This document shows, one piece after another, positions 5,065-18,883 of a stretch of DNA of 64,000 nucleotides; the first letter of the stretch is position 1, and every line of letters begins with the position of its first letter. The translations under genes and the position numbers were made by a program. Below the pieces are notes generated by a model, which saw only the letters and a list, made by a program, of their open reading frames with translations, searched no databases and was not told the origin of the DNA. Source of the stretch: Nitrospirota bacterium (GTDB lineage Bacteria; Nitrospirota; Thermodesulfovibrionia; Thermodesulfovibrionales; UBA6898); assembly GCA_016214855.1 (NCBI GenBank), contig JACRMT010000004.1:372001-436000 (forward strand), given 5' to 3'.

Positions 5065-5535
5065 CTATTTAATGAAACTGTCCCTGAATTTCGCAAGCCA
5101 CATGATATGGCTCCTCTCTTCATTGATGATCTCGTCAACCACATCTTTCTGCTGCACCGCATCCCTGAGAGCATAAAAATAGAGCAATGTCTCCTTCTCA
5201 AACCCCATCGCAAAACGCACTGCGTCCTCGACCGTTTTCACATGCTCAAGGGAGGGAAGAGACTTATGTTTGCCGAGGAAAAACTCCGATTCCACTATTG
5301 CACGCATATATTCAGACACGTCAGCCCATGCCTCCGGCTCCTCTTCGCCCATGATATCCTTCAGCTCAAGGAACATCTTCTCATGAACAAGTTCTTTGCC
5401 TGCAAGCGTGTCGAAAAGCCTCTTCAGACCTTCATTCTTTTCAAATCTCTTTGCTATCGTTGTGTAAAACTCATACCCCAGCCTCTCGGTCCTGACAGCC
5501 TGCTCCACCACTTCCCTGATAGAATATCGCTCCAT
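5065..5535 (-). CDS. Ferritin-like/rubrerythrin-family diiron protein
   Basis: A 156-residue all-helical protein of the ferritin-like superfamily. Repeating diiron-ligand patterns are visible: E-FY-T in helix 1, ELVHEKMF (ExxH), EKETLLYFY in helix 3, and EERSHIMWL (ExxxH). It lacks the C-terminal rubredoxin CxxC domain of classical rubrerythrin, so it is a stand-alone erythrin or oxidoreductase-associated member. Such proteins reduce peroxide or protect oxygen-sensitive enzymes. As the first gene of the korAB operon it may protect the oxygen-labile oxidoreductase; this is inference. A clear Shine-Dalgarno (GGGAGGAA) precedes the ATG. Confidence 0.75.
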   Translation of the reverse strand: MERYSIREVVEQAVRTERLGYEFYTTIAKRFEKNEGLKRLFDTLAGKELVHEKMFLELKDIMGEEEPEAWADVSEYMRAIVESEFFLGKHKSLPSLEHVKTVEDAVRFAMGFEKETLLYFYALRDAVQQKDVVDEIINEERSHIMWLAKFRDSFIK

Positions 5536-5581: not shown

Positions 5582-5947
5582 TTAGATTACCCGATTTATA
5601 TCCTCAATATCTACCGTGCCTTTCTCTATGCAATGCCCGAGGCAGAGAAGCCCGCCGCAGGGATTCACTGCCTTGCGTGTCATATCCCTGCCTTCCCCCC
5701 TCTTCCATGCAGCAAAATCGCAATCCTCTTTAAAAAAAGGACATCCGCCGCAGACCAGCTGAAAAAGATCGTTCTCTGACCTCATGCTCATTACTGTCTT
5801 TTCCGTCACGGCAGGGAGCTCCTTGCCCTGCCGCAGAAGTTTTTCGATAATAATAAAACCCCGGCAGGCAAGTTCTTCGTCTTTCCCTGGTTTATAAAAC
5901 GAACAATATCCTGCACAGAGCCGGTCCGGAAGCTCCTCTTTGTCCAT
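5582..5947 (-). CDS. Cysteine-rich conserved-looking hypothetical protein next to radical SAM gene
   Basis: A small cytoplasmic-looking protein with nine Cys in clusters: LCAGYC, ACRGF, VCGGCPFFKEDC and PCGGLLCLGHC. The spacing resembles Fe-S or zinc ligand sets, and no family name can be given. The frame is open up to 5992, but that start would overlap the start codon of the divergent radical SAM gene. The Met at 5947 (after an earlier one at 5956) is taken as more plausible, giving about 121 residues. No good ribosome-binding site decides it. It is head-to-head with the radical SAM maturase, and gene pairs of this kind are often functionally linked, so it could be an accessory Fe-S protein of the peptide-modifying system. 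That link is inference. Confidence 0.6.
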   Translation of the reverse strand: MDKEELPDRLCAGYCSFYKPGKDEELACRGFIIIEKLLRQGKELPAVTEKTVMSMRSENDLFQLVCGGCPFFKEDCDFAAWKRGEGRDMTRKAVNPCGGLLCLGHCIEKGTVDIEDINRVI

Positions 5948-5957
5948 GAATTCCATC

Positions 5958-5985
5958 TTAGCAGAAATAAGGCTTGTTGTATAAT
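5958..5985 (+). promoter_or_regulatory. Candidate promoter of the radical SAM gene, close to its start codon
   Basis: TTAGCA at 5958-5963 and a perfect TATAAT at 5980-5985 are 16 bp apart. The -10 box ends only 5 bp before the ATG at 5991, so transcription would begin at or within about a base of the start codon. The gene also has no visible Shine-Dalgarno, which would fit a leaderless message or a real start further downstream. Confidence 0.4.
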
Positions 5986-5990
5986 GAAGC

Positions 5991-7145
5991 ATGCGCTATT
6001 ACCTGTCGCCGCATGTCTGTTTAAAGCAGCTTGAAACCCCCTCGGTCTACCATCCGGGAACAGATGAGCTCTATGAGCTGGATGGAGACTCGTTCGATCT
6101 CCTCAGAGCATGCTCTGCAGAAGAAGGATGCTCTTCCGCAGAAAAAGAATTCATTGACTACTGCGTTCAGGAAAAGATACTGATCACAGACCGTATCCCG
6201 ATACAACGGCCTCCCCTGATCAAGGCGCCAGAGCCGTCCCTCCGCTATCTTGAACTCCAGATCACGGACAGATGCAATCTGCACTGCAGACATTGCTATA
6301 TTGGGCCGTCCTCGGGTCCGGATATATTTCATGAACTTTCTCTCGATCAGATAAAGACCAGTCTTCGCGAGTTTGAAGAACTCCAGGGGCTGCGGGTACT
6401 GATCACCGGCGGCGAACCCCTGCTGCACAGGGATTTCGCGTCTATCAACAATATGCTGCCTGATCTCCTGATTCGCAAGGTGCTCTTCTCGAACGGACTC
6501 CTCCTGAACCGGGCAGTTCTGAAAGATCTTCATGTCGATGAGATCCAGGTCAGCATTGACGGCCTTCAGCAGGCACATGATATCCTGAGGGGAGCTGGTA
6601 CGTTTGCGCGATCAATGGACAGCATTCGTCTCTGTCTTGATATGGGCTATGAGGTCTCAGTATCTACCATGGTTCATGCCGACAACCTTAATGATTTCGA
6701 TGATATGGAATTGCTCTTCAGAAAAATGGGGATCAGGGACTGGACCGTTGACGTGCCCTGTGTTGCAGGAAGACTTGCGGACAATGAAAGATCCCAGGTC
6801 ACGCCGTCAACAGGAGGAAGATATCTGAAATACGGATTTGGTGAGGGTCTTCACAGCGGCGGCGAGGGGTTCGGATGCGGGCTTCACCTCATGTCGGTCA
6901 TGGCTGACGGGAAGGTCTCAAAATGCACCTTTTTTGCAGACAGATCTGTCGGGACTGTGCAGGACGGTCTCAGAACGTGCTGGCAGAGGATCTCCCCTGT
7001 CCGGTTAAGCGACCTCACCTGCGATTGTGAATATCTTGCCTCGTGCAGAGGCGGCTGCAGATACCGCGCAGAGGTCCTTGGCGATGCCCGGGGAAAAGAC
7101 CTTTACAGATGTGCGCTCTATGATATAATTAACAAAGAAAAGTGA
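5991..7145 (+). CDS. Radical SAM/SPASM peptide maturase with N-terminal RRE-like domain
   Basis: A 384-residue radical SAM enzyme. Residues 1 to about 80 look like a PqqD/RRE-type peptide-recognition domain (VYHPGTDELYELDGDSFDLL). The SAM-binding 4Fe-4S motif is CNLHCRHC (CxxxCxxC) near residue 95, followed by ITGGEPLLH and a TIM-barrel core. The C-terminal SPASM-like region holds further Cys: FGCGLHLM, KCTFF, LTCDCEYLASCRGGC and YRCALY. Such enzymes install thioether or other crosslinks in short peptides. The 20-codon Cys-rich gene 43 bp downstream is the obvious substrate candidate. The overall arrangement recalls the geopeptide-type radical SAM maturases of Geobacter, but that family match is from memory. 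It is divergent from a Cys-rich hypothetical gene. Confidence 0.85.
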   Translation: MRYYLSPHVCLKQLETPSVYHPGTDELYELDGDSFDLLRACSAEEGCSSAEKEFIDYCVQEKILITDRIPIQRPPLIKAPEPSLRYLELQITDRCNLHCRHCYIGPSSGPDIFHELSLDQIKTSLREFEELQGLRVLITGGEPLLHRDFASINNMLPDLLIRKVLFSNGLLLNRAVLKDLHVDEIQVSIDGLQQAHDILRGAGTFARSMDSIRLCLDMGYEVSVSTMVHADNLNDFDDMELLFRKMGIRDWTVDVPCVAGRLADNERSQVTPSTGGRYLKYGFGEGLHSGGEGFGCGLHLMSVMADGKVSKCTFFADRSVGTVQDGLRTCWQRISPVRLSDLTCDCEYLASCRGGCRYRAEVLGDARGKDLYRCALYDIINKEK

Positions 7146-7188
7146 TCGGGCACGAAGTCCGTATCTTTGCACAAAGGAGGTGTAAAGC

Positions 7189-7251
7189 ATGACGATCAGG
7201 AAGATCTCGAAAAAGGCAGCAACGACCTGTAAGTGCAAGAGTTCCTGTTAA
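7189..7251 (+). CDS. Candidate RiPP precursor: 20-residue lysine- and cysteine-rich peptide
   Basis: ATG at 7189, TAA at 7249-7251, preceded by a near-perfect ribosome-binding site (AAAGGAGGTG, 7173-7182) at good spacing. The peptide has a basic leader-like start (MTIRKISKKAA) and a tail TTCKCKSSC with three cysteines in a C-x-C-x3-C pattern. It lies between the radical SAM/SPASM gene and a strong terminator, with no other gene in between. A strong ribosome-binding site on so short a frame, directly after a peptide maturase, argues that it is translated and modified, possibly as a thioether-bridged (sactipeptide- or ranthipeptide-like) product. No family assignment is certain. It ends with TAA, so it is not a selenopeptide. 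Confidence 0.7.
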   Translation: MTIRKISKKAATTCKCKSSC

Positions 7252-7272
7252 TCAGGACTGATAATGAAACAT

Positions 7273-7307
7273 AAAGAGGGTCCCGAACCATAATCGGGAC
7301 CCTCTTT
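7273..7307. terminator. Strong bidirectional rho-independent terminator
   Basis: A perfect 14-bp stem (7273-7286 with 7294-7307, AAAGAGGGTCCCGA and its complement) closes a 7-nt loop. T-rich sequence follows on both strands (TTTTATTTT on plus, TTTATGTTT on minus). It ends the radical SAM/mini-peptide unit from the left and the nitroreductase-tpx-sod operon from the right. Confidence 0.9.
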
Positions 7308-7351: not shown

Positions 7352-7930
7352 TTACGTAAGCCTTGATTCAGCCGCACCCCAATTGATGTTCTTGAAGAAT
7401 GCCTCGATGTAATCAGCGCGTTTGAGGCCGTAATCGATCATATACGCATGTTCGAAAACGTCCATGATCAAAACCGGGGTGCATCCGGCAGGATGGGACA
7501 CGTCATGCTCATTCACCCAGACGTTAAAGAGCTTTCCATTTGCAGGGTCAGCATAAAGCGCAACCCATCCGATACCGCGCATCGTGCCTGTGGCCTTAAA
7601 GTCCTTTTCCCAGTTCTCATAGCTTCCGAAATCGGCCTGCATCTGCTTCATCAGCTTCCCGTCCTTATTCAGGCCGCCCTTGCCCCCAAGGTTCTCGAAA
7701 TAATATTCATGAAGCCTCATCCCATTAAATTCCCATCCGAATCTTCTTTTCAGCTCCGCATACTCGGGTGTGGCGGTTTTGCCATCCCTGAGCATCTGGT
7801 CAAGGATATCGGCGACCTTGTTCGTATTCGTCACATATCCCTGGTACAGGGTAAAATGGTTCTTTATCAGTGTTTCACTAAACCCTTCCATTCCAACCAA
7901 TGCGCTAAAGTCCCTGGCAGTGTATGACAT
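7352..7930 (-). CDS. Iron/manganese-family superoxide dismutase
   Basis: A 192-residue cytoplasmic enzyme that dismutates superoxide to hydrogen peroxide and oxygen. The metal ligands are recognisable: His in KNHFTLYQGY near residue 25, His in MRLHEYYFENLGG, and Asp and His in MDVFEHAYMIDYG (the DxWEHAY motif with Phe for Trp). The second-helix motif differs from the HSxFW of classical Fe/Mn SODs, which places it in the divergent SOD branch common in anaerobes. Metal preference cannot be read from this. It is the last gene of a three-gene oxidative-stress operon (nitroreductase, tpx, sod), 21 bp after tpx, and ends at the shared terminator near 7300. Confidence 0.88.
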   Translation of the reverse strand: MSYTARDFSALVGMEGFSETLIKNHFTLYQGYVTNTNKVADILDQMLRDGKTATPEYAELKRRFGWEFNGMRLHEYYFENLGGKGGLNKDGKLMKQMQADFGSYENWEKDFKATGTMRGIGWVALYADPANGKLFNVWVNEHDVSHPAGCTPVLIMDVFEHAYMIDYGLKRADYIEAFFKNINWGAAESRLT

Positions 7931-7951: not shown

Positions 7952-8464
7952 TTATATGATCTGTTTGGCAGCAGCAACTGCCTTTTCATAATCCGGGTGG
8001 TCCGTTATCTCGGGAACGATCTCAACATAGCGTATCACGTCGCCTCTGTCCAGCACAAAGATCGCCCTGGCAAGCAGGCGCAGCTCCTTTATCAGCACGC
8101 CATACGCCATACCAAAACCTGCATCCCGATGATCCGAAAGTGCCTTTGCCTTGTCAATGCCGGCACTGGTGCAGAATCTTGCGACAGCAAACGGCAGGTC
8201 CATGCTTACATTCAGGACCATGACGTCACCCGGAAGACCGGCAGCCTCTGTGTTAAACCTGCGCAGCTGGAGGTCACAGACCGGGGTGTCCAGCGACGGC
8301 GTCACGCTGATCAATTTGACCTTTCCTGAAAGATCCTTCAGGCCAAATGGCTTCATCTCTCCGTCCAGGAGACTGAAGTCCGGAGCCTTATCGCCCGGTT
8401 TGAGAGCAGGACCGAGCAGTGTAAGGGGGCTGCCCTGAAATGTTATTACTCCGCTTCTCTCCAT
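7952..8464 (-). CDS. tpx: Thiol peroxidase (Tpx-type atypical 2-Cys peroxiredoxin)
   Basis: A 170-residue peroxiredoxin that reduces hydrogen peroxide and alkyl hydroperoxides using thioredoxin. The peroxidatic motif TPSLDTPVCDLQLRRFN and the resolving Cys in ARFCTSAGI are both present, as in the Tpx subgroup, and the length is normal. It sits between the nitroreductase (15 bp upstream) and the superoxide dismutase (21 bp downstream). The operon therefore handles superoxide and then the peroxide made from it. An AAGGAGGA-like ribosome-binding site precedes the start. Confidence 0.92.
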   Translation of the reverse strand: MERSGVITFQGSPLTLLGPALKPGDKAPDFSLLDGEMKPFGLKDLSGKVKLISVTPSLDTPVCDLQLRRFNTEAAGLPGDVMVLNVSMDLPFAVARFCTSAGIDKAKALSDHRDAGFGMAYGVLIKELRLLARAIFVLDRGDVIRYVEIVPEITDHPDYEKAVAAAKQII

Positions 8465-10378: not shown

Positions 10379-13300
10379 TCAATGCCGTATACCGAATATC
10401 TCAGATATGACCTCTGCACCTGTATGGTCATACGAGAAAATATAGCCCTTGCCTGCAGGCTCGTCATAAACGAAGGTGATATCCGCACTGCTGGCAGAAT
10501 CAAGAACCAGATACGGGTTCGTGGGAAGCAATACGGACCCAACCGGGACCAGAATATTGCTCTGTGCATCCAGAACTGCCACATATACCTGGTAAGAATC
10601 TGAAACAGCCAAATAGGTTGTATAGGCCTTCACAAGCCAATTGTCAGATATCCGGAAAAAGCTGTTTCTTGCCATCTGGCCGATTTCCGTATAGGTTTTT
10701 ACCACAAGAGCTTCACTGTTGCCGGCCTTATCAATTGAGTAAAAACGCAGATCTTCTGTAAAAGTAATTCTGATCGGAACCCCTGTATAAACAGTAGTCG
10801 GGGCACAGCCGATCCCAAGACAATAATATGTCCTATCACAGCCGGTTTCAGAATCTGCACAGGTGAGTGTCACGAATACTGAAGACCTGAACTGTCCGTC
10901 TGATGGCTCAGGAGTTGTTACCGGGGCTGTTACGTCTTTCGCAAACGTAGCGTTCACCGTTATATCACCATTAACCAGTACAACACATTCACCCACACCC
11001 GTACAGCCGCCTCCTGACCATCCGGTGAATATGGATAATGTGTCCGGAACTGCGGTCAAGGTCATTGTCACCTGCGGCAGGGAAGTCTCATCACAGTCAT
11101 TACCGCAGGTTATCCCCACAGGAAGACTGGTAACAGTGCCCGTCCCGTTGCCAAGCTTAACAACCCTCAACCGGTAGTGAATTGTTGTGTTTTCAGTCAC
11201 CGTATTGTTCGATAAATCAGCATCGTTTGTATCTGAAAGCACACGCGCAGTGTTGGTGATCACTCCGCTCACCATGGGGGCAGTAATGTTTACGACCACT
11301 ATTGCCGTATTGCCCGGAGCTGTTGCACCAAGGTTTCCGACAAGGCAACTAACCTTGCCGTCGGCTGCACTGCATGAGGGGTTTGACCCTGCAGGCTCAA
11401 AAGACGTGCCGGTGGGAAGTGTGTCCTCAAGCAGAACGCCGGCTGCTTTGTCAGGACCGTTGTTCGTCACTGTGTACGTGTATGTTATGACATTACCAAC
11501 GACAGCCGGGTCAGGGTTATCAGAAACCGTTACTGAGAGGTCAGCATGGCCGATAGCCCCGCCCTTCTTCGAACGCACACAGCGCACACCGAGGAGTTGG
11601 TCCTTTGCACGGGTTATCACATCACCGTTGCTGAAGGATACACCCCAGGCATACATCGGATTCAAGAGGGCTGTAGCAACGCTGGTCGTAGAACTCCAGT
11701 ACACGCCCTGACTCACAGCGGTAAATACTGCCGGATCTGTCGCCGGTTTGTTCCTGGTATCAACGGTGATGGATTCCAGTTCCCTCACATCAGGCAGACG
11801 CCAGTCAATTATTCCTGACAAGGCAGGGAATTCGAGATTTTCACAGTAATCCAGCGCGTCCAGCCACGTCTTGGCCACTGTTTCTCCCTGCAGCCAGATA
11901 AGGCCGGTGGCATTGTCCGAGACTGTCCCGTCCCCGTTTGTATGAAGGTCAGGATAGATCAGGGCCTTTCCGCGCACACAGCGTGTTAGCGACGTCGTTG
12001 TAACAGCATGGCCATCCGCATGACCCATAAAAAAGTCGAGGTTCCATGCCATTCCTGCACTGTCCTTATATTCCGTATCCACCCAGTAAGGAGCAGGATC
12101 CGCTGCAAGGAATGGGGCACTGAGGGACGGATTATAGATCCCAAAGTTAACAATGCTCAGAAGTTCCTTCTTGCTCGGCAGACGCCAGTCAGGATAGAAT
12201 CCGCCAGGATACAGCCCAAGGGACATTCCTTCACAATACGCCTTGGCCGCTGCCTTTGTCCTCAGCGCGTTATCATCGATCTTCTGCCACATCAGATGGG
12301 TATTATTATCGGTAACCGTGCCGTCGCCATTGTCAGTAATAGACATTGGGTTTGTAGCATAGTCTGCGTCTTCACCCGGGACATGCGGATTGGTGAAGGG
12401 TATAAGCTGACCTGAATCAGGGAATTTAATCTCGCACGCATCACCGATACCATCCCCATCCGTATCCGTCTGTTTCGGATTATTGACCAGCGGACAGTTG
12501 TCCACCCCGTTTAAGACGCCATCATTGTCCTTATCCGGGTCACACGCATCACCGAGGCCATCCCCATCCGTATCAAGCTGATCGGTATTCGCGATAAGCG
12601 GGCAGTTGTCCACCCCGTTTAAGACGCCATCATTGTCCTTATCCGGGTCACACGCATCACCGAGGCCATCCCCATCCGTATCAAGCTGATCAGGGTTATA
12701 AACAAGTGGACAATTGTCAATGCTGTCCGGGATCAGGTCTAAGTCATTATCAGAATCGACCTGGGTAACAACAGCGGACGTATTATTGGCCCTGTAATCA
12801 TCATTGGTTATAGAGCTGACTGTCACCGTATTTGTCATAAGTCCCGGTGTGCCCTGAGCCTGAATGATGAGGTCAACTATAACATCACTGCCGCTTGCCA
12901 GTGATCCAATTTCACAGATTGCTTTACCGAGATCGCACGCCCCGTTGTTCCAGGAACCGGAGACAAGAACAGTTCCGGCAGGAAGCACTTCGGAAAGTAC
13001 TACCCCTACGGCATCAAAAGGACCATTGTTATGCACCGTTGCCATAAACGGCACTGGAACATTCACAATCACCGGCGCTGCTGGACCGGTCGGACCAGTA
13101 AGGACAACAGAGAGCTCAGCCTCTCCCAGTGACCCTGCACGTCCTCCACGGACGCACCTGACAAGATACTGCTTAAGTGGTGAAATACTGTACTGGCTGT
13201 CTGTCTTCGTCCCTGCGGTAACACTCCCTTCCAGGAAATCAACTGTCCAGGCTTCTGCGCTGGCAGACTGCCTCGTTGTTGACGACCAGTAACGTGCGCT

Positions 13301-16300
13301 ATCAGCACCAATCAGTAGCGGGTTAATCGCAGGATCTGTTCTGTCCCTGGCGGCAAGAGACTGCAGCTCCTTGATATTGGGAAGCCGCCAATCATTCACA
13401 AGAGGTGATGTCGGCAATTCAAGATTCTCACAATAGCCCAGAGCCTCTTCCCATGTCCTCGGAGTATTATCATCCGACTGCTGCCACGTCAGCCCGGTAG
13501 TAAGATCAGAGACTGTGCCGTCAGTATTGTCCGTAAAACTGCCATAGACAATTTCAGTTTCCCGAACGCAGCGAACCCTTTGCGGAATACTCTTTGTATG
13601 AATATTCACAAAGCCACCCGCAAAGTCTATTGCCCATGCATCTGACGGTGCGCTGCTGAATGTATCACGCGACCAGTATTTCGCCGGCTCTGTACCCGGG
13701 AAATACAGAGCATCTATGGCAGGAGAGCTTTGACCGAAGTCGACAATACCCATAAGCTCTTTGACTGACGGCATCCGCCAGTCACCCACAAACCCGCCGA
13801 GCATCAGAGAAGAGCAATAGGCTCCCGCATCGTCCCATAAATATGAGGTATTGTTATCTTCTGCCTGCCACATGAGATGAGTGTTCAGGTCAGTAACCGT
13901 ACCGTCTCCATGGTCAATAAATAAAGGCAGATTAATCGCGTAGTCCGAGTCTTCGCCGAAGGTCTCGGTAAAATCACCAGTCTGACCGGTATCGGCAAGC
14001 CTGAGTTCGCAGGCGTCTCCGATTCCATCTCCATCCGTATCAGCCCGATCAGGGTTCGGCACAGAAGGACAATTGTCAATCCCGTTGGGAATACCGTCGC
14101 CATCCCGATCATCATCACAGGCATCGCCAATGCTATCCCCGTCGCTGTCGGCCTGTCCGGGATTCCAGACAAATGGACAGTTGTCCGCAACATCAGGGAT
14201 TCCATCCTCATCCGAATCAAGGATAAAGGTGGCTGTCACCGTAATATCTGCATTTATCAAGACCGAGCACGTTCCTGTTCCTGAGCACCCGCCACCTGAC
14301 CAGCCTTCAAAGACTGACCCGATACTCGGCACTGCGGTAAGAGCAACCTCAGGCGGACCGATTGGGAACGATTCACTATAATCATTGATTGCGGTATCTA
14401 TTCCTGAAGGAGAGCTCGTTACCTTCCCCGAGCCGGTCCCCTTCAAAGAAACTGAAAGCGTCTGATGGTCATATCCTGCAACCGTGCTGAGAGACACCGC
14501 GTTGTTCGATAAGTCGCCATCATGGGTCAGTGCTGTAACAGTAGCAGTATTCATAATCGTCGCCGGTGCAGACGGAGCAGCAATAACGATCGTCACCAGA
14601 ATGTCCCCACCAATTCCGATATCCCCTATTGCACAGGTCATTGTACCTGAGGAATTATCAATACAGCCCGTTCCTCCTGTCCAGTTTCCTGAGACGAATG
14701 TGCCGGCAGAATAGGTATCTGTCAGGACAACTTCGTGCGCCTCAAATGGCCCGTTATTGGAGACTGTTATCGAATAGGTAATATTGTTGTTCACAACAAC
14801 CGGGTCAGGTGAATCTGTTGCCGCAACCTTCTGCAGAGAGAGCTCTGCCTCTCCAATTGAACCCGATCTGCCTCCACGAACACACCGGATGCTCTTGAAG
14901 CCGTTCTTGAGGGCATAAGAAGTACCGCCGCTTGCAAAATCGGCGAACCAGGCATTATCAACATATTCCGAACTGGTCGTTGATGACCAATAGCCGGTTG
15001 CATTTACTCCATAGAAGAAAGAATTATCGACAGCGGCATTATTGGAAGCAGATGGTAAAGCATCATCAGCAATTGTCTCCAGTTCTCGTATATTCGGAGC
15101 TCTCCAGTCGGTTACGCCGCTGGCGCTGGGGAGTTCGAGATCCTCGCAATAGGAGATGGCCTGCTCCCATGTCCTGGATGTCGCAGGTGTCTGCTGCCAT
15201 ACAAGACCGGTAGAATTGTCCTGTATGGTGCCGTTTCCGTTATCGTGGAAATTATCAAATGATAAAGGAGTGTGCCTGACACACAAGACCCTGTATTTAT
15301 TATCTTTCCGTGAGAAAGTTGTCTGCCCGCTGCCAAAGTGCACGGCCCAGGCATTTATCTGGCCGTCGGCATATGTGGTGGCTGTCCAGTAGTTCTGCGT
15401 ATTCATGCCCGGGAAAATTGACGTCTCAACAGCCGGGTTCTTGAATTGGTAATTCACAATGCTGAGTAGTTCCTTCTTCTTTGGCAGTCGCCAGTCAGAA
15501 TGTCCTCCAGCAACAAGACTACCGCATACGTCAAGCTTTGCATTGGGATTGAACGCATCGGAAATACCCATTGCCTCATACCAGTTGTAGTTTGTATCGT
15601 CGTCAGCCCTCTGCCACATAAGATGCGTGTTCAGGTCTGTTACTGTGCCGTTGCCGTTGTTAATCAACGAAGGCGGGTAGATGAAATAATCGGAATCATC
15701 CCCCGTCACAGATGCATAGTGTGTGGTCTGGCCTGTATCAGGGAGTCTCAGTTCACAGGCATCCCCTACCCCATCATTATCAGTATCAGCCTGGTCTGTG
15801 TTGGGAACATATGGACAATTATCAATTGAATCCCATATAAGGTCATTATCGAAGTCAGAATCATATGCAAATATTGCGGTTACGGTAATGTTTGCGTTTA
15901 TCGTGACCTCACATGTATCGCCTTCCGGATCGCCCGTGCTGAGACAACCGCCTCCGGACCATCCCACAAATCTGGTCTGTGTCGCATCCGGAGGAGATAC
16001 GGAAGGCCGATTCGGCGTTGCGGTAAGGATCACCTTTTCCTCGAATGCATAGATATCAAAACATGCATCCTGCTGGTCACCCGGACAGTTAATCATGTTT
16101 CCGTCACCATCTATGCCGTCATGGTCTGCCGTCACCTGTCCCGGCACATCACCCTGCACTACAACCGTCAACACTGCTTCACGGCCGCCCCTGACGCAAC
16201 GGACATAGTTGGTTTCGTTCTTGTAAAACGGATATGAATAGCCATAGTCAAAATAGATGCCCCATGCAATAGTCTTATCAGCAACATTCGTCGTAGATGA

Positions 16301-18883
16301 CCAGAACTTTGACGTATCGTTCTCATCGAGGAAGCCCCGGAAAACAGTCGTATCGCGGGTATCGATCGCAGGGTTGGCCATTTCGAGGCTGGTTAAGGAT
16401 GCAAGCTCCTTAATATTGGGGAGTCTCCAGTCTGAACGTAGCGCTGTCCCTCCTGCCATATTCAGGTCAACCTTGGTTATATTCCCTGATACCGTGCTGA
16501 CAACAGAGAAGGTGTTCGGCCCGGTCCCTGTCAGCGCTGCAGCACTGATCGTAACGATAGGGCCTGAAGATGTTGCCGTATACTCAGGCGTAGAGCTATA
16601 TGCATTGATATTGGCTGCAACTGCTGTAGCCAACTGCTGGAGGTTCGTGGTAAATGGCACCGGTGACCCAGTATCCATGATCTGCACGCCGTCTACCGTA
16701 ATGCCGGTCACCGAACCGGAGTTGCCGGTCATAAACCGTACTGAACCTGTTGCCACAGTTTGACTTAATTGACTATTCTCGCAATAGCTCGTAGCAGCAC
16801 TCCAGTCCAATGGACCGGAGAAGCCCCTTTCCCACATGAGGTTTGTCCCTTTGTCGAGCACCCAATCGTCAGATGTGTCGCCGGGAGTGCCATTGTCAAA
16901 CATCGCATACTCGTTGAAATGCAGGGGATTACCTCTTACGCATTTCACATACGATTTGCTTGACTTGCCGACAGGGAGAAACGTTCCTGTAGCAAAGTTA
17001 ACATTCCATGCTATATCAGAGGAAAGGGCAAAGGAATCAGAAGACCAGTAATCGGTCTTGGTGGACAAAAATACTGAGGTATCAATCGACATATTGTCAG
17101 TACGCTCAGCATAATCCATCAAGGTAACAAGTTCCTTCATGGAAGGGAGTCTCCAATCGTCATGTCCATTCAGAGTAAGATTGCCACAGATATTCACAAC
17201 GCCACCGGGATTATCGCCAATTCCAGTATTGGCAGATGCAGTCCCGCTCGCCTGATTCCAGGTATAGGTCTGGGTTCCTGTCATCTGCTGCCACACAAGG
17301 CCGGTAACATTATCAATCACCGTGCCTCTGTCCACCGTGAAAGAGGGGGATTTAATCAGATAACTGCCGTCCTGGGCCAGTATACTGCCTGCTGTCGGAC
17401 ATGCTATAGGTGAGCCAGAAGCATTATAGCAGATAGTCTGACCTGTATCAGAAAGATTCACCTGACACGCATCACCCCTGCCATCATGATCAGAATCCCG
17501 TTGGTCGGGATTAAACACTGAAGAACAATTATCCTGCAGATCCGCAATACCGTCACCGTCAGCATCACCGTCACAGGCGTCACCAATGCCGTTGCCGTCA
17601 GCATCGGCCTGATCAGGATTATGGACATTCGGGCAGTTATCGTCACAATTAACCGTATTACCACCCCTGCACTTATTGTCACCCGCTGTACCGCTCAAGT
17701 CACCGTCATCTGCAATGCCGTCGCTGTCAGTGTCCTGTCCAAAGATCGCATTGACCACACGGTTTGAGGTCATCACCAGAGTGCATGTTTTTGAAGCGCC
17801 GGTGCAGTCGCCTGTCCAGCCGATAAAGGTCGAGACGAGATCATTTGGAGTTGCCTCAAGCGTTATGGTATCGTTTTTTGTATAGATCTCAGAACATGCT
17901 CCAGTGCATGAAATAGCAGGTCCAGACGGGATGACGGACGTTGAACGTATAGTCCCGCTCCCTGTTCCGAGTTTGTTTACGTTGAGCGTGAAGTCATTAT
18001 CAATGATCGTAACCGTAGCAGCATCGACGAAGACCAGCGCGTTCGATGAACTGATGTGGACAGTAAAAGTTTCGTCACCTTCAACCTCGTGGTCATTTCT
18101 GATCGGTATCCTGATTTCAGCAGAAGGTTGATTGGGAGAGATGGAGCCCGACAGAGGTAACGCAACAGTGCCGCTGATGGTATAATCATCCGTCGTACCG
18201 CTGACACTGCCGATCGCAGTACCATCTTGCGTATAATAGCTGAAGTGCACGGTCTCGTTAGTCGTCTTGCTTAACGATACAGTCAGCACTGCATCACCAG
18301 CATCTTCATTGACAGAAACATCTGTAATGCTGAGGATTGGCCGCTTTTTCAAACCATATTCCTCGCCGTTGATTGGGTCGGCACCTTTCCTGCCTGTCAG
18401 TTTTATCCAGCCGAGGTTTTCGGACCAGACAGCACCGGTGAATTTTTCGACATTTTCACCGCCAAGTGCAGGCACATTATACTTTGCTGCTACTACAGGA
18501 GGGCACAGCTCTGTACATGAAGGATTGAAGTTGATCCATCCTGCGAGTTCGCTCCATCCATAACCTGAGAGCAAACCGTTAACAAGGTTGACATTGACGC
18601 CCCAATTAGTCCCATTTGTGTTGGTATAAGGACCGGCAGAACCATACCCGAGCTGTATCCAGCCAATATTTTCAGCCCAAATATACCCAGTCAGATAGCC
18701 GGTACTGCCATCAACAATCTGCATGCCTTCTGCGGCATTAAGCCAGCCGGCTGTCTCGGACCATGCAAAGCCGCTGACATTAGTGCCCGGAAGCGGCGCT
18801 GCCAATGCAATGGCCGGCAGCAGGAGCACCAATATCATGGTTTCGATGAGTATTTTTCTATATCTGGCTTGGGCCGTTTTCAT
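10379..18883 (-). CDS. Giant multidomain exported protein (2,834 aa) with DUF1566, DUF11, TSP3 and Calx-beta modules
   Basis: A signal peptide spans about residues 1-28. Four G-x-x-W-(S/A)-E-x-x-GW repeats follow at about 35-165, a Calx-beta domain at about 185-297, and the first of four divergent InlB-type repeats (each with GWxGxC). Four units follow, each containing thrombospondin type 3 calcium-binding repeats (DxDxDGIGD), a pair of DUF1566/Lcl domains (HLMWQ...DWRLP.KKEL...YW...RCVR) and, in three of them, a DUF11 domain. There are eight DUF1566 copies in total. The C-terminus has a chitobiase-like segment and a ~95-residue module starting near SDNWLVKAY. One DUF1566 copy holds a ~108-residue insertion. 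The many Asp-rich repeats predict calcium-dependent folding outside the cell. It is likely a surface adhesin or matrix protein; no catalytic motif is seen. Confidence 0.85.
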   Translation of the reverse strand: MKTAQARYRKILIETMILVLLLPAIALAAPLPGTNVSGFAWSETAGWLNAAEGMQIVDGSTGYLTGYIWAENIGWIQLGYGSAGPYTNTNGTNWGVNVNLVNGLLSGYGWSELAGWINFNPSCTELCPPVVAAKYNVPALGGENVEKFTGAVWSENLGWIKLTGRKGADPINGEEYGLKKRPILSITDVSVNEDAGDAVLTVSLSKTTNETVHFSYYTQDGTAIGSVSGTTDDYTISGTVALPLSGSISPNQPSAEIRIPIRNDHEVEGDETFTVHISSSNALVFVDAATVTIIDNDFTLNVNKLGTGSGTIRSTSVIPSGPAISCTGACSEIYTKNDTITLEATPNDLVSTFIGWTGDCTGASKTCTLVMTSNRVVNAIFGQDTDSDGIADDGDLSGTAGDNKCRGGNTVNCDDNCPNVHNPDQADADGNGIGDACDGDADGDGIADLQDNCSSVFNPDQRDSDHDGRGDACQVNLSDTGQTICYNASGSPIACPTAGSILAQDGSYLIKSPSFTVDRGTVIDNVTGLVWQQMTGTQTYTWNQASGTASANTGIGDNPGGVVNICGNLTLNGHDDWRLPSMKELVTLMDYAERTDNMSIDTSVFLSTKTDYWSSDSFALSSDIAWNVNFATGTFLPVGKSSKSYVKCVRGNPLHFNEYAMFDNGTPGDTSDDWVLDKGTNLMWERGFSGPLDWSAATSYCENSQLSQTVATGSVRFMTGNSGSVTGITVDGVQIMDTGSPVPFTTNLQQLATAVAANINAYSSTPEYTATSSGPIVTISAAALTGTGPNTFSVVSTVSGNITKVDLNMAGGTALRSDWRLPNIKELASLTSLEMANPAIDTRDTTVFRGFLDENDTSKFWSSTTNVADKTIAWGIYFDYGYSYPFYKNETNYVRCVRGGREAVLTVVVQGDVPGQVTADHDGIDGDGNMINCPGDQQDACFDIYAFEEKVILTATPNRPSVSPPDATQTRFVGWSGGGCLSTGDPEGDTCEVTINANITVTAIFAYDSDFDNDLIWDSIDNCPYVPNTDQADTDNDGVGDACELRLPDTGQTTHYASVTGDDSDYFIYPPSLINNGNGTVTDLNTHLMWQRADDDTNYNWYEAMGISDAFNPNAKLDVCGSLVAGGHSDWRLPKKKELLSIVNYQFKNPAVETSIFPGMNTQNYWTATTYADGQINAWAVHFGSGQTTFSRKDNKYRVLCVRHTPLSFDNFHDNGNGTIQDNSTGLVWQQTPATSRTWEQAISYCEDLELPSASGVTDWRAPNIRELETIADDALPSASNNAAVDNSFFYGVNATGYWSSTTSSEYVDNAWFADFASGGTSYALKNGFKSIRCVRGGRSGSIGEAELSLQKVAATDSPDPVVVNNNITYSITVSNNGPFEAHEVVLTDTYSAGTFVSGNWTGGTGCIDNSSGTMTCAIGDIGIGGDILVTIVIAAPSAPATIMNTATVTALTHDGDLSNNAVSLSTVAGYDHQTLSVSLKGTGSGKVTSSPSGIDTAINDYSESFPIGPPEVALTAVPSIGSVFEGWSGGGCSGTGTCSVLINADITVTATFILDSDEDGIPDVADNCPFVWNPGQADSDGDSIGDACDDDRDGDGIPNGIDNCPSVPNPDRADTDGDGIGDACELRLADTGQTGDFTETFGEDSDYAINLPLFIDHGDGTVTDLNTHLMWQAEDNNTSYLWDDAGAYCSSLMLGGFVGDWRMPSVKELMGIVDFGQSSPAIDALYFPGTEPAKYWSRDTFSSAPSDAWAIDFAGGFVNIHTKSIPQRVRCVRETEIVYGSFTDNTDGTVSDLTTGLTWQQSDDNTPRTWEEALGYCENLELPTSPLVNDWRLPNIKELQSLAARDRTDPAINPLLIGADSARYWSSTTRQSASAEAWTVDFLEGSVTAGTKTDSQYSISPLKQYLVRCVRGGRAGSLGEAELSVVLTGPTGPAAPVIVNVPVPFMATVHNNGPFDAVGVVLSEVLPAGTVLVSGSWNNGACDLGKAICEIGSLASGSDVIVDLIIQAQGTPGLMTNTVTVSSITNDDYRANNTSAVVTQVDSDNDLDLIPDSIDNCPLVYNPDQLDTDGDGLGDACDPDKDNDGVLNGVDNCPLIANTDQLDTDGDGLGDACDPDKDNDGVLNGVDNCPLVNNPKQTDTDGDGIGDACEIKFPDSGQLIPFTNPHVPGEDADYATNPMSITDNGDGTVTDNNTHLMWQKIDDNALRTKAAAKAYCEGMSLGLYPGGFYPDWRLPSKKELLSIVNFGIYNPSLSAPFLAADPAPYWVDTEYKDSAGMAWNLDFFMGHADGHAVTTTSLTRCVRGKALIYPDLHTNGDGTVSDNATGLIWLQGETVAKTWLDALDYCENLEFPALSGIIDWRLPDVRELESITVDTRNKPATDPAVFTAVSQGVYWSSTTSVATALLNPMYAWGVSFSNGDVITRAKDQLLGVRCVRSKKGGAIGHADLSVTVSDNPDPAVVGNVITYTYTVTNNGPDKAAGVLLEDTLPTGTSFEPAGSNPSCSAADGKVSCLVGNLGATAPGNTAIVVVNITAPMVSGVITNTARVLSDTNDADLSNNTVTENTTIHYRLRVVKLGNGTGTVTSLPVGITCGNDCDETSLPQVTMTLTAVPDTLSIFTGWSGGGCTGVGECVVLVNGDITVNATFAKDVTAPVTTPEPSDGQFRSSVFVTLTCADSETGCDRTYYCLGIGCAPTTVYTGVPIRITFTEDLRFYSIDKAGNSEALVVKTYTEIGQMARNSFFRISDNWLVKAYTTYLAVSDSYQVYVAVLDAQSNILVPVGSVLLPTNPYLVLDSASSADITFVYDEPAGKGYIFSYDHTGAEVISEIFGIRH
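12495..12691 (-). repeat. Exact tandem duplication inside thrombospondin type 3 repeats
   Basis: Two 89-bp stretches, 12495-12583 and 12603-12691, appear identical and lie one 108-bp period (36 codons) apart. Each encodes DxDGDGLGDACDPDKDND-type calcium-binding repeats. Identity at the DNA level, where the neighbouring repeats have diverged, points to a recent duplication or gene conversion. Confidence 0.75.
16437..16765 (-). other. Domain-sized insertion within one DUF1566 module of the giant protein
   Basis: In the second DUF1566 copy, about 108 residues (about 706-815) separate the CENSQL element from SDWRLPNIKEL. In the other copies these elements are directly adjacent or separated by about 10 residues. 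The insert has a beta-rich, Ser/Thr/Gly-rich composition (VRFMTGNSGSVTGITVDG; ANINAYSSTPEYTATSSG) resembling modules of phage tail and adhesin proteins. The frame is intact on both sides. Confidence 0.6.

Follow-up and report, generated by a model that had tools for sequence, protein, structure and literature searches.

A conserved radical SAM/SPASM maturase, a 20-residue cysteine peptide and a Cys-rich protein form a candidate RiPP-type pathway in Nitrospirota

We analyzed a 64,000-nucleotide stretch of a genome from the Thermodesulfovibrionales (Nitrospirota), referred to here as the window. Its maturase gene (5991-7145, +) encodes a protein of 384 residues that comprises an RRE (residues ~1-65), a radical SAM domain with a CX3CX2C motif (residues 95-102) and SPASM-type cysteines (residues 296-374). 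It is followed by a 20-codon precursor peptide gene (7189-7251, +; product MTIRKISKKAATTCKCKSSC), which is preceded by a Shine-Dalgarno (SD) sequence (7173-7182, +; AAAGGAGGTG), and by an intrinsic terminator (7273-7307, +) with a perfect 14-bp stem (-28.4 kcal/mol; folding z of -8.6). The ORF of a Cys-rich partner (5582-5992, -) diverges from the maturase and encodes nine cysteines, seven of them invariant across its family as judged by alignment; its true start is probably at 5947 (MDKEEL) and not at the first ATG. The maturase, the 20-codon frame, the 14-bp terminator and the divergent nine-Cys ORF were thus all recovered as the original prediction had described them. Two promoter-like sites were found, i.e., TTAGCA-16-TATAAT (5958-5985, +), whose -10 box ends 5 nt 5′ of the maturase ATG, and TTTACA-16-TATAAT with a TG extension (7102-7129, +), which lies within the 3′ end of the maturase gene upstream of the peptide and matches the consensus at 11 of 12 positions. 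A two-hairpin leader RNA (7145-7191, +; folding z of -2.9) consists of hairpin 1 (7147-7161) with an ACGAA loop and hairpin 2 (~7165-7187), which contains the SD sequence. A rubrerythrin-like gene (5065-5535) is located upstream of this group of genes. Downstream of the terminator, the opposite strand encodes an Fe/Mn superoxide dismutase (7352-7930) and, beyond it, a thiol peroxidase-type redoxin (7952-8464). At some distance, the product of a 2834-aa ORF (10379-18883, -) is apparently an exported repeat protein, in which domains of calcium-binding-like (D-x-D-x-D-G) and DWRLP type recur.

The maturase matched the Pfam family Radical_SAM (PF04055; E 5e-22). Among 25 orthologues, the CX3CX2C cysteines C95, C99 and C102 are invariant, as are the SPASM-type cysteines 296, 312, 344, 346, 352, 356 and 374 together with C257 and C330. 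The SPASM-type residues are arranged as C296-x10-G307-x4-C312, C344-x-C346-x5-C352-x3-C356 and C374, where CX9-15GX4C...CX2CX5CX3C...C would be expected; one spacing is therefore CXC where the pattern has CX2C, and the Pfam SPASM model did not report the domain. An AlphaFold2 model (pLDDT 85.8) displays the predicted RRE-radical SAM-SPASM fold. It aligned to SuiB over residues 3-381 with the N-terminal domain included (Z 24.0, VIA-align), to SkfB over residues 7-368 (Z 23.8) and to CteB over residues 79-378 (Z 21.0). These three, all carrying an RRE, are the closest matches among RiPP maturases with a solved structure. SuiB forms a C-C bond, and SkfB and CteB are sactipeptide/ranthipeptide maturases. 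All three share architecture and fold with our maturase, and SkfB and CteB also act on Cys-containing substrates, as we propose here; however, sequence identity is as low as 14-21%. The strands (residues 3-21) and helices (residues 32-60) at the modeled N-terminus support an RRE-like unit. This region gave no sequence match to the PqqD Pfam model, by which RREs outside PQQ clusters are often missed (PMC7470986). The fused RRE, radical SAM and SPASM domains proposed originally are thus borne out by PF04055, by the invariant cysteines and by the match of the model to SuiB.

In NCBIfam, the maturase did not reach any equivalog. The best score was obtained for NirJ (92.6 bits, cut-off 515), and SkfB (57.9, cut-off 300), AlbA (54.4, cut-off 850) and StsB (72.6, cut-off 625) likewise stayed below their cut-offs. 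With 65.5 bits against a cut-off of 265 for TIGR03962, the Nitrospirota system is not a member of the mycofactocin pathway, but it may share its mode of working. The geopeptide (TIGR04280) and GeoRSP (TIGR04303) systems resemble ours in that radical SAM/SPASM enzymes of environmental anaerobes come with small partners; membership in either was rejected, as the maturase scored 32.8 and 69.5 bits, respectively, against cut-offs of 400, and was outscored for TIGR04280 by further radical SAM proteins encoded in its genome. The likeness to geopeptide-type systems assumed at the outset therefore did not hold. In a search of plasmids, the best matches listed were generic radical SAM proteins of 23-32% identity.

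We then turned to the peptide. Of 30 relatives, 25 have the complete short frame directly 3′ of the orthologous maturase, and in another one a contig end interrupts it. A GTDB scan was evaluated for its best 80 loci, which bear Nitrospirota titles apart from a few records named 'uncultured bacterium' or after a strain. A CxCxxxC peptide is encoded ≤200 nt downstream of the maturase in 55 of these loci, and four of those lacking it run up to a contig edge or close to one. In many of the other maturase genomes in which adjacency is missing, the peptide gene is located elsewhere. The consensus of 105 distinct 20-codon genes reads M-x-I(103/105)-[KR]-K(103/105)-V-x-K-K-x-[AS]-T-T(100/105)-C-K-C-K-[S/G/N/E/A]-S-C, in which the invariance of C14, K15, C16, K17, S19 and C20 is partly by construction, as these were fixed in the later search pattern; identical core letters appear in the pattern-free list of 30 relatives and in the list of 80 loci selected for CxCxxxC only. 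Variability at the three codon positions of these genes amounts to 0.134, 0.154 and 0.445, i.e., the third position is about three times as variable as the others, and it amounts to ~0.18, 0.23 and 0.51 for codons 2-13, which were free in the pattern. Because the 105 homologues vary mostly at the third position, we consider the 20-codon frame real and, as judged from this pattern, the peptide to be under purifying selection. A chance open frame is ruled out by its presence in the relatives, by the codon-position variability and by a reversed control (see below). The original prediction of a translated 20-residue Cys peptide with a leader of only about a dozen residues is thereby supported; it had been staked on conservation of the frame beside orthologous maturases, and the frame is conserved there. 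The peptide matched no NCBIfam family, and the open-access papers searched yielded no report of a CKCKSSC or CKCKGSC peptide or of a SPASM maturase in Nitrospirae. Precursors of 20 residues are of a size that gene callers tend to skip, and the locus offers a concrete candidate maturase-substrate pair.

Two variants deserve mention. A genus that we place by inference as Thermodesulfovibrio-like (g19) has a peptide of 19 residues (MIKKVSGKAMPTCKCKGSC); its gene stands alone before a TPR-type gene and ispE-like and prs-like genes (L163-L171), and its leader contains an extra, third hairpin with an AUGAA loop. At a contig end of another genome (L182, G010:C26), a tandem partial duplication comprises two maturase 3′ ends, each with its own peptide gene and leader.

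To follow the genes across the phylum, we used 395 Nitrospirota genomes, most of which are MAGs. The maturase is present in 118. A CKCK[SG]SC-stop pattern, searched at the DNA level, hit 79, of which 75 are maturase-positive (Fisher 2e-44, a value inflated, like all such profile statistics, by shared ancestry), and its reversed control gave 0 matches in the 395 genomes. With a looser pattern the peptide was found in ~36 of the remaining 43 maturase genomes, which brings the total to ~111 of 118. Within families of mixed maturase state, the peptide occurs in 71 of 75 maturase-positive and in 5 of 45 maturase-negative genomes, and none of 20000 within-family permutations matched this association; such tests reduce the effect of ancestry but do not remove it. 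In one of the five maturase-negative genomes (G010) the maturase is broken by a contig end, and in two genomes (G039 and G312) peptide and partner were found without the maturase. Seven maturase-positive genomes lack a detected peptide; among them, G006 is cut by a contig end, G090 and G095 are fragmentary or incomplete, and G216, G304 and G319 belong to one genus, the seventh being G071. The Cys-rich protein is present in 116 of the 395 genomes, 108 of which also carry the maturase, leaving only 8 others (Fisher 2e-74; within families, CMH 45 and permutation 0/20000). The three genes are widely separated in many genomes (e.g., in G035, maturase at C1:70790, partner at C1:533556 and peptide at C2:137591), and therefore linkage does not account for their joint presence and absence. 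As the Cys-rich protein co-occurs as tightly as the peptide while often being unlinked, we regard the system as one of three components. The suspicion that the nine-Cys protein might be a partner is borne out by its occurrence in 108 of the 118 maturase genomes, and the description of the system as 'minimal' has to be given up, since the phylogenetic profile makes this protein its third component.

The Cys-rich family has seven invariant cysteines in the order CxxxC, C, CxxC, C, CGG. No Pfam, PDB-sequence or Foldseek match was obtained, although a match may have been missed with a model pLDDT of only 75; the locus thus adds a conserved third gene without a known domain. This gene is the commonest neighbor of the maturase, nearly always upstream and on the opposite strand. 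Where unlinked (20 loci examined), it lies directly 3′ of cutA (CutA1) in nine loci, with overlapping stop and start codons in most pairs (e.g., among L275-L280, L282 and L284), and near an HhH-GPD DNA glycosylase in five or endonuclease V in three. Since the partner follows the maturase across genomes no less closely than the peptide, and its gene often lies next to that of the maturase in divergent orientation, one could imagine that the maturase mainly acts on the Cys-rich or another protein, the 20-residue peptide being a regulatory or helper peptide; the special leader RNA of the peptide gene and its occasional separation from the maturase would fit. We consider this improbable, as a product of 20 residues whose C-terminal core is invariant is shaped like a substrate, its gene directly follows the maturase in most loci, and RREs of known systems read short leader peptides.

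The three conserved genes thus co-occur, and comparison of their upstream regions reveals an equally conserved layout of promoters and leader. Among 66 orthologues, a TANAAT box is located 3-9 nt 5′ of the maturase start in 61 (2.1 on average after shuffling), and no SD-like 4-mer precedes this start in any of them. As the -10 box abuts the start and no SD-like 4-mer is present, the maturase mRNA is probably leaderless. Upstream of the peptide gene, a TANAAT -10-like box is found at 25-75 nt in 66 of 88 cases (shuffled mean 9.3), and 82 of the 88 leaders have an SD of at least 5 nt. Besides having a promoter and a structured leader to itself, the peptide gene is located far from the maturase in many genomes. 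The leader lies between promoter and start codon, with an A[UC]GAA loop in hairpin 1 and the SD covered by hairpin 2. Covariation in 39 rows supports this fold: 91.5% of the cells are paired, and 48 double changes and a score of 0.506 compare with 12.4 and 0.194, respectively, after shuffling. These rows had been selected for hairpin 1, and the fairer measure is its occurrence in 53 of 88 leaders against 3.9 in dinucleotide shuffles. A covariance model of the leader (R1) matched window positions 7145-7191 with an E of 2.6e-8, the window leader being among the rows used to build it. Strong matches (E below 1e-5) are found only at peptide genes, which speaks against a wide regulon element, and no Rfam family matched. 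The leader RNA is a candidate new regulatory element. With an own promoter, a strong SD and a hairpin leader for the peptide and a leaderless mRNA for the maturase, the layout points to scarce enzyme and abundant peptide, the latter being controlled at translation.

A weaker R1 match with a structurally convincing look was found in G037, a genome without the maturase, where the same two-hairpin leader (loops ACGAA and AAGAA over an SD) precedes a TonB-dependent receptor gene (L243, G037:C76, ~6299). CCA[UC]GAAGG hairpins and a terminator-like stem also precede the upstream methyltransferase-like gene, and the hairpins of this genome possibly belong to a wider class of regulatory RNA hairpins.

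Considering these data, we lean, with somewhat better than even confidence, toward a three-gene RiPP-type pathway of Nitrospirota that yields an intracellular, cofactor-like modified peptide with a redox or metal-binding function. The RRE would bind the basic leader of ~12 residues (M-x-I-[KR]-K-V-x-K-K), and the radical SAM/SPASM domain would modify the invariant C-terminal core TCKCKxSC of the peptide, which would be made in excess over the enzyme. That the maturase modifies this peptide, and at which residues and through which bonds, is what we infer; the chemistry is probably that of Cys thioethers, with at least one Cys sulfur joined to neighboring residues; cysteines and possible acceptors are present in TCKCKSSC. 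An unlinked general peptidase would then release a small conserved molecule that may serve as an intracellular redox or metal-binding cofactor, comparable to the products of PQQ and mycofactocin biosynthesis. The Cys-rich protein would be an obligate partner, i.e., a redox or Fe-S donor, a chaperone or the receptor of the product.

PQQ (PqqA/PqqD/PqqE) and mycofactocin (MftA/MftB/MftC) likewise combine a very small precursor, which is strongly conserved and carries its core at the C-terminus, with an RRE and a radical SAM/SPASM enzyme; they too have a clean phylogenetic profile and no exporter (PMC3023750). In our system, however, the RRE is fused, the core is CKCKxSC instead of Glu-Tyr or Val-Tyr, the Cys-rich partner has no fold match, and no further pathway enzymes are clustered. 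A strictly conserved precursor of PqqA size, invariant C-terminal residues and a clean profile mark the cofactor side of the two grammars described by Haft, whereas bacteriocin precursors diversify quickly (PMC3023750). We favor a cofactor-like product because of the fixed length, the C-terminal core, the conservation, the clean profile and the absence of exporter and immunity genes; no gene for an exporter, a protease or immunity was recurrent beside the maturase in our neighborhood survey. A secreted bacteriocin or signaling sactipeptide/ranthipeptide, exported and processed by unlinked general systems, might be suspected from the closeness to SkfB, which makes the sporulation killing factor, and to the thioether-forming CteB. 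It is highly improbable, given a peptide nearly invariant across a class and beyond, the rapid diversification of bacteriocins and the missing exporter, protease and immunity genes; in contrast to the SkfB, CteB and SuiB systems, the precursor is fixed at 20 residues and conserved across a branch of the phylum.

The main rival of the cofactor-like product is a metal-handling peptide, either a metallophore or a metallothionein-like Cu/Zn/Fe buffer, whose CKCKxSC cysteines bind metal, with the maturase rigidifying or tuning the ligand and the Cys-rich protein as metal carrier. The spacing of CKCKxSC resembles metallothionein motifs, CutA1, whose gene precedes the unlinked Cys-rich genes in the nine loci above, is linked to divalent ion tolerance, and genes for superoxide dismutase, rubrerythrin-like proteins and thiol peroxidase are common neighbors. 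We nevertheless judge it rather unlikely, as the loci have neither a recurrent transporter nor a recurrent metal regulator, thioether formation would use up the thiols, and CutA and stress genes occur so widely that their adjacency may be incidental.

Should the product prove to be a cofactor, it would be one of very few of ribosomal origin (PQQ and mycofactocin being the others named here) and would bring a further part of the physiology of Thermodesulfovibrionales and related Nitrospirota into view. The kind of system, i.e., an RRE with a radical SAM/SPASM enzyme and a short precursor, is already known; searches of NCBIfam, Pfam, Rfam and open-access literature turned up neither its precursor family nor the three-gene set with the Cys-rich protein nor the leader RNA. 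More tentatively, and with more doubt than confidence, we consider that the pathway may make a new thiol-based redox or metal cofactor from a 20-residue precursor by means of a fused RRE-radical SAM-SPASM enzyme and an obligate Cys-rich protein, under a new two-hairpin leader essentially specific to the precursor.

Genes recurring near the maturase encode rubrerythrin-like proteins, superoxide dismutase and 2-oxoacid:ferredoxin oxidoreductase; some lineages add a flavodiiron protein. This neighborhood is equally compatible with metal or stress functions, and the role of the product is perhaps in metal or oxidative stress. A second, smaller radical SAM/SPASM gene near the peptide adjoins rubrerythrin-like and flavodiiron genes at one locus (L177:1100-2071), and a cluster of genes similar to it is found at 10 maturase loci.
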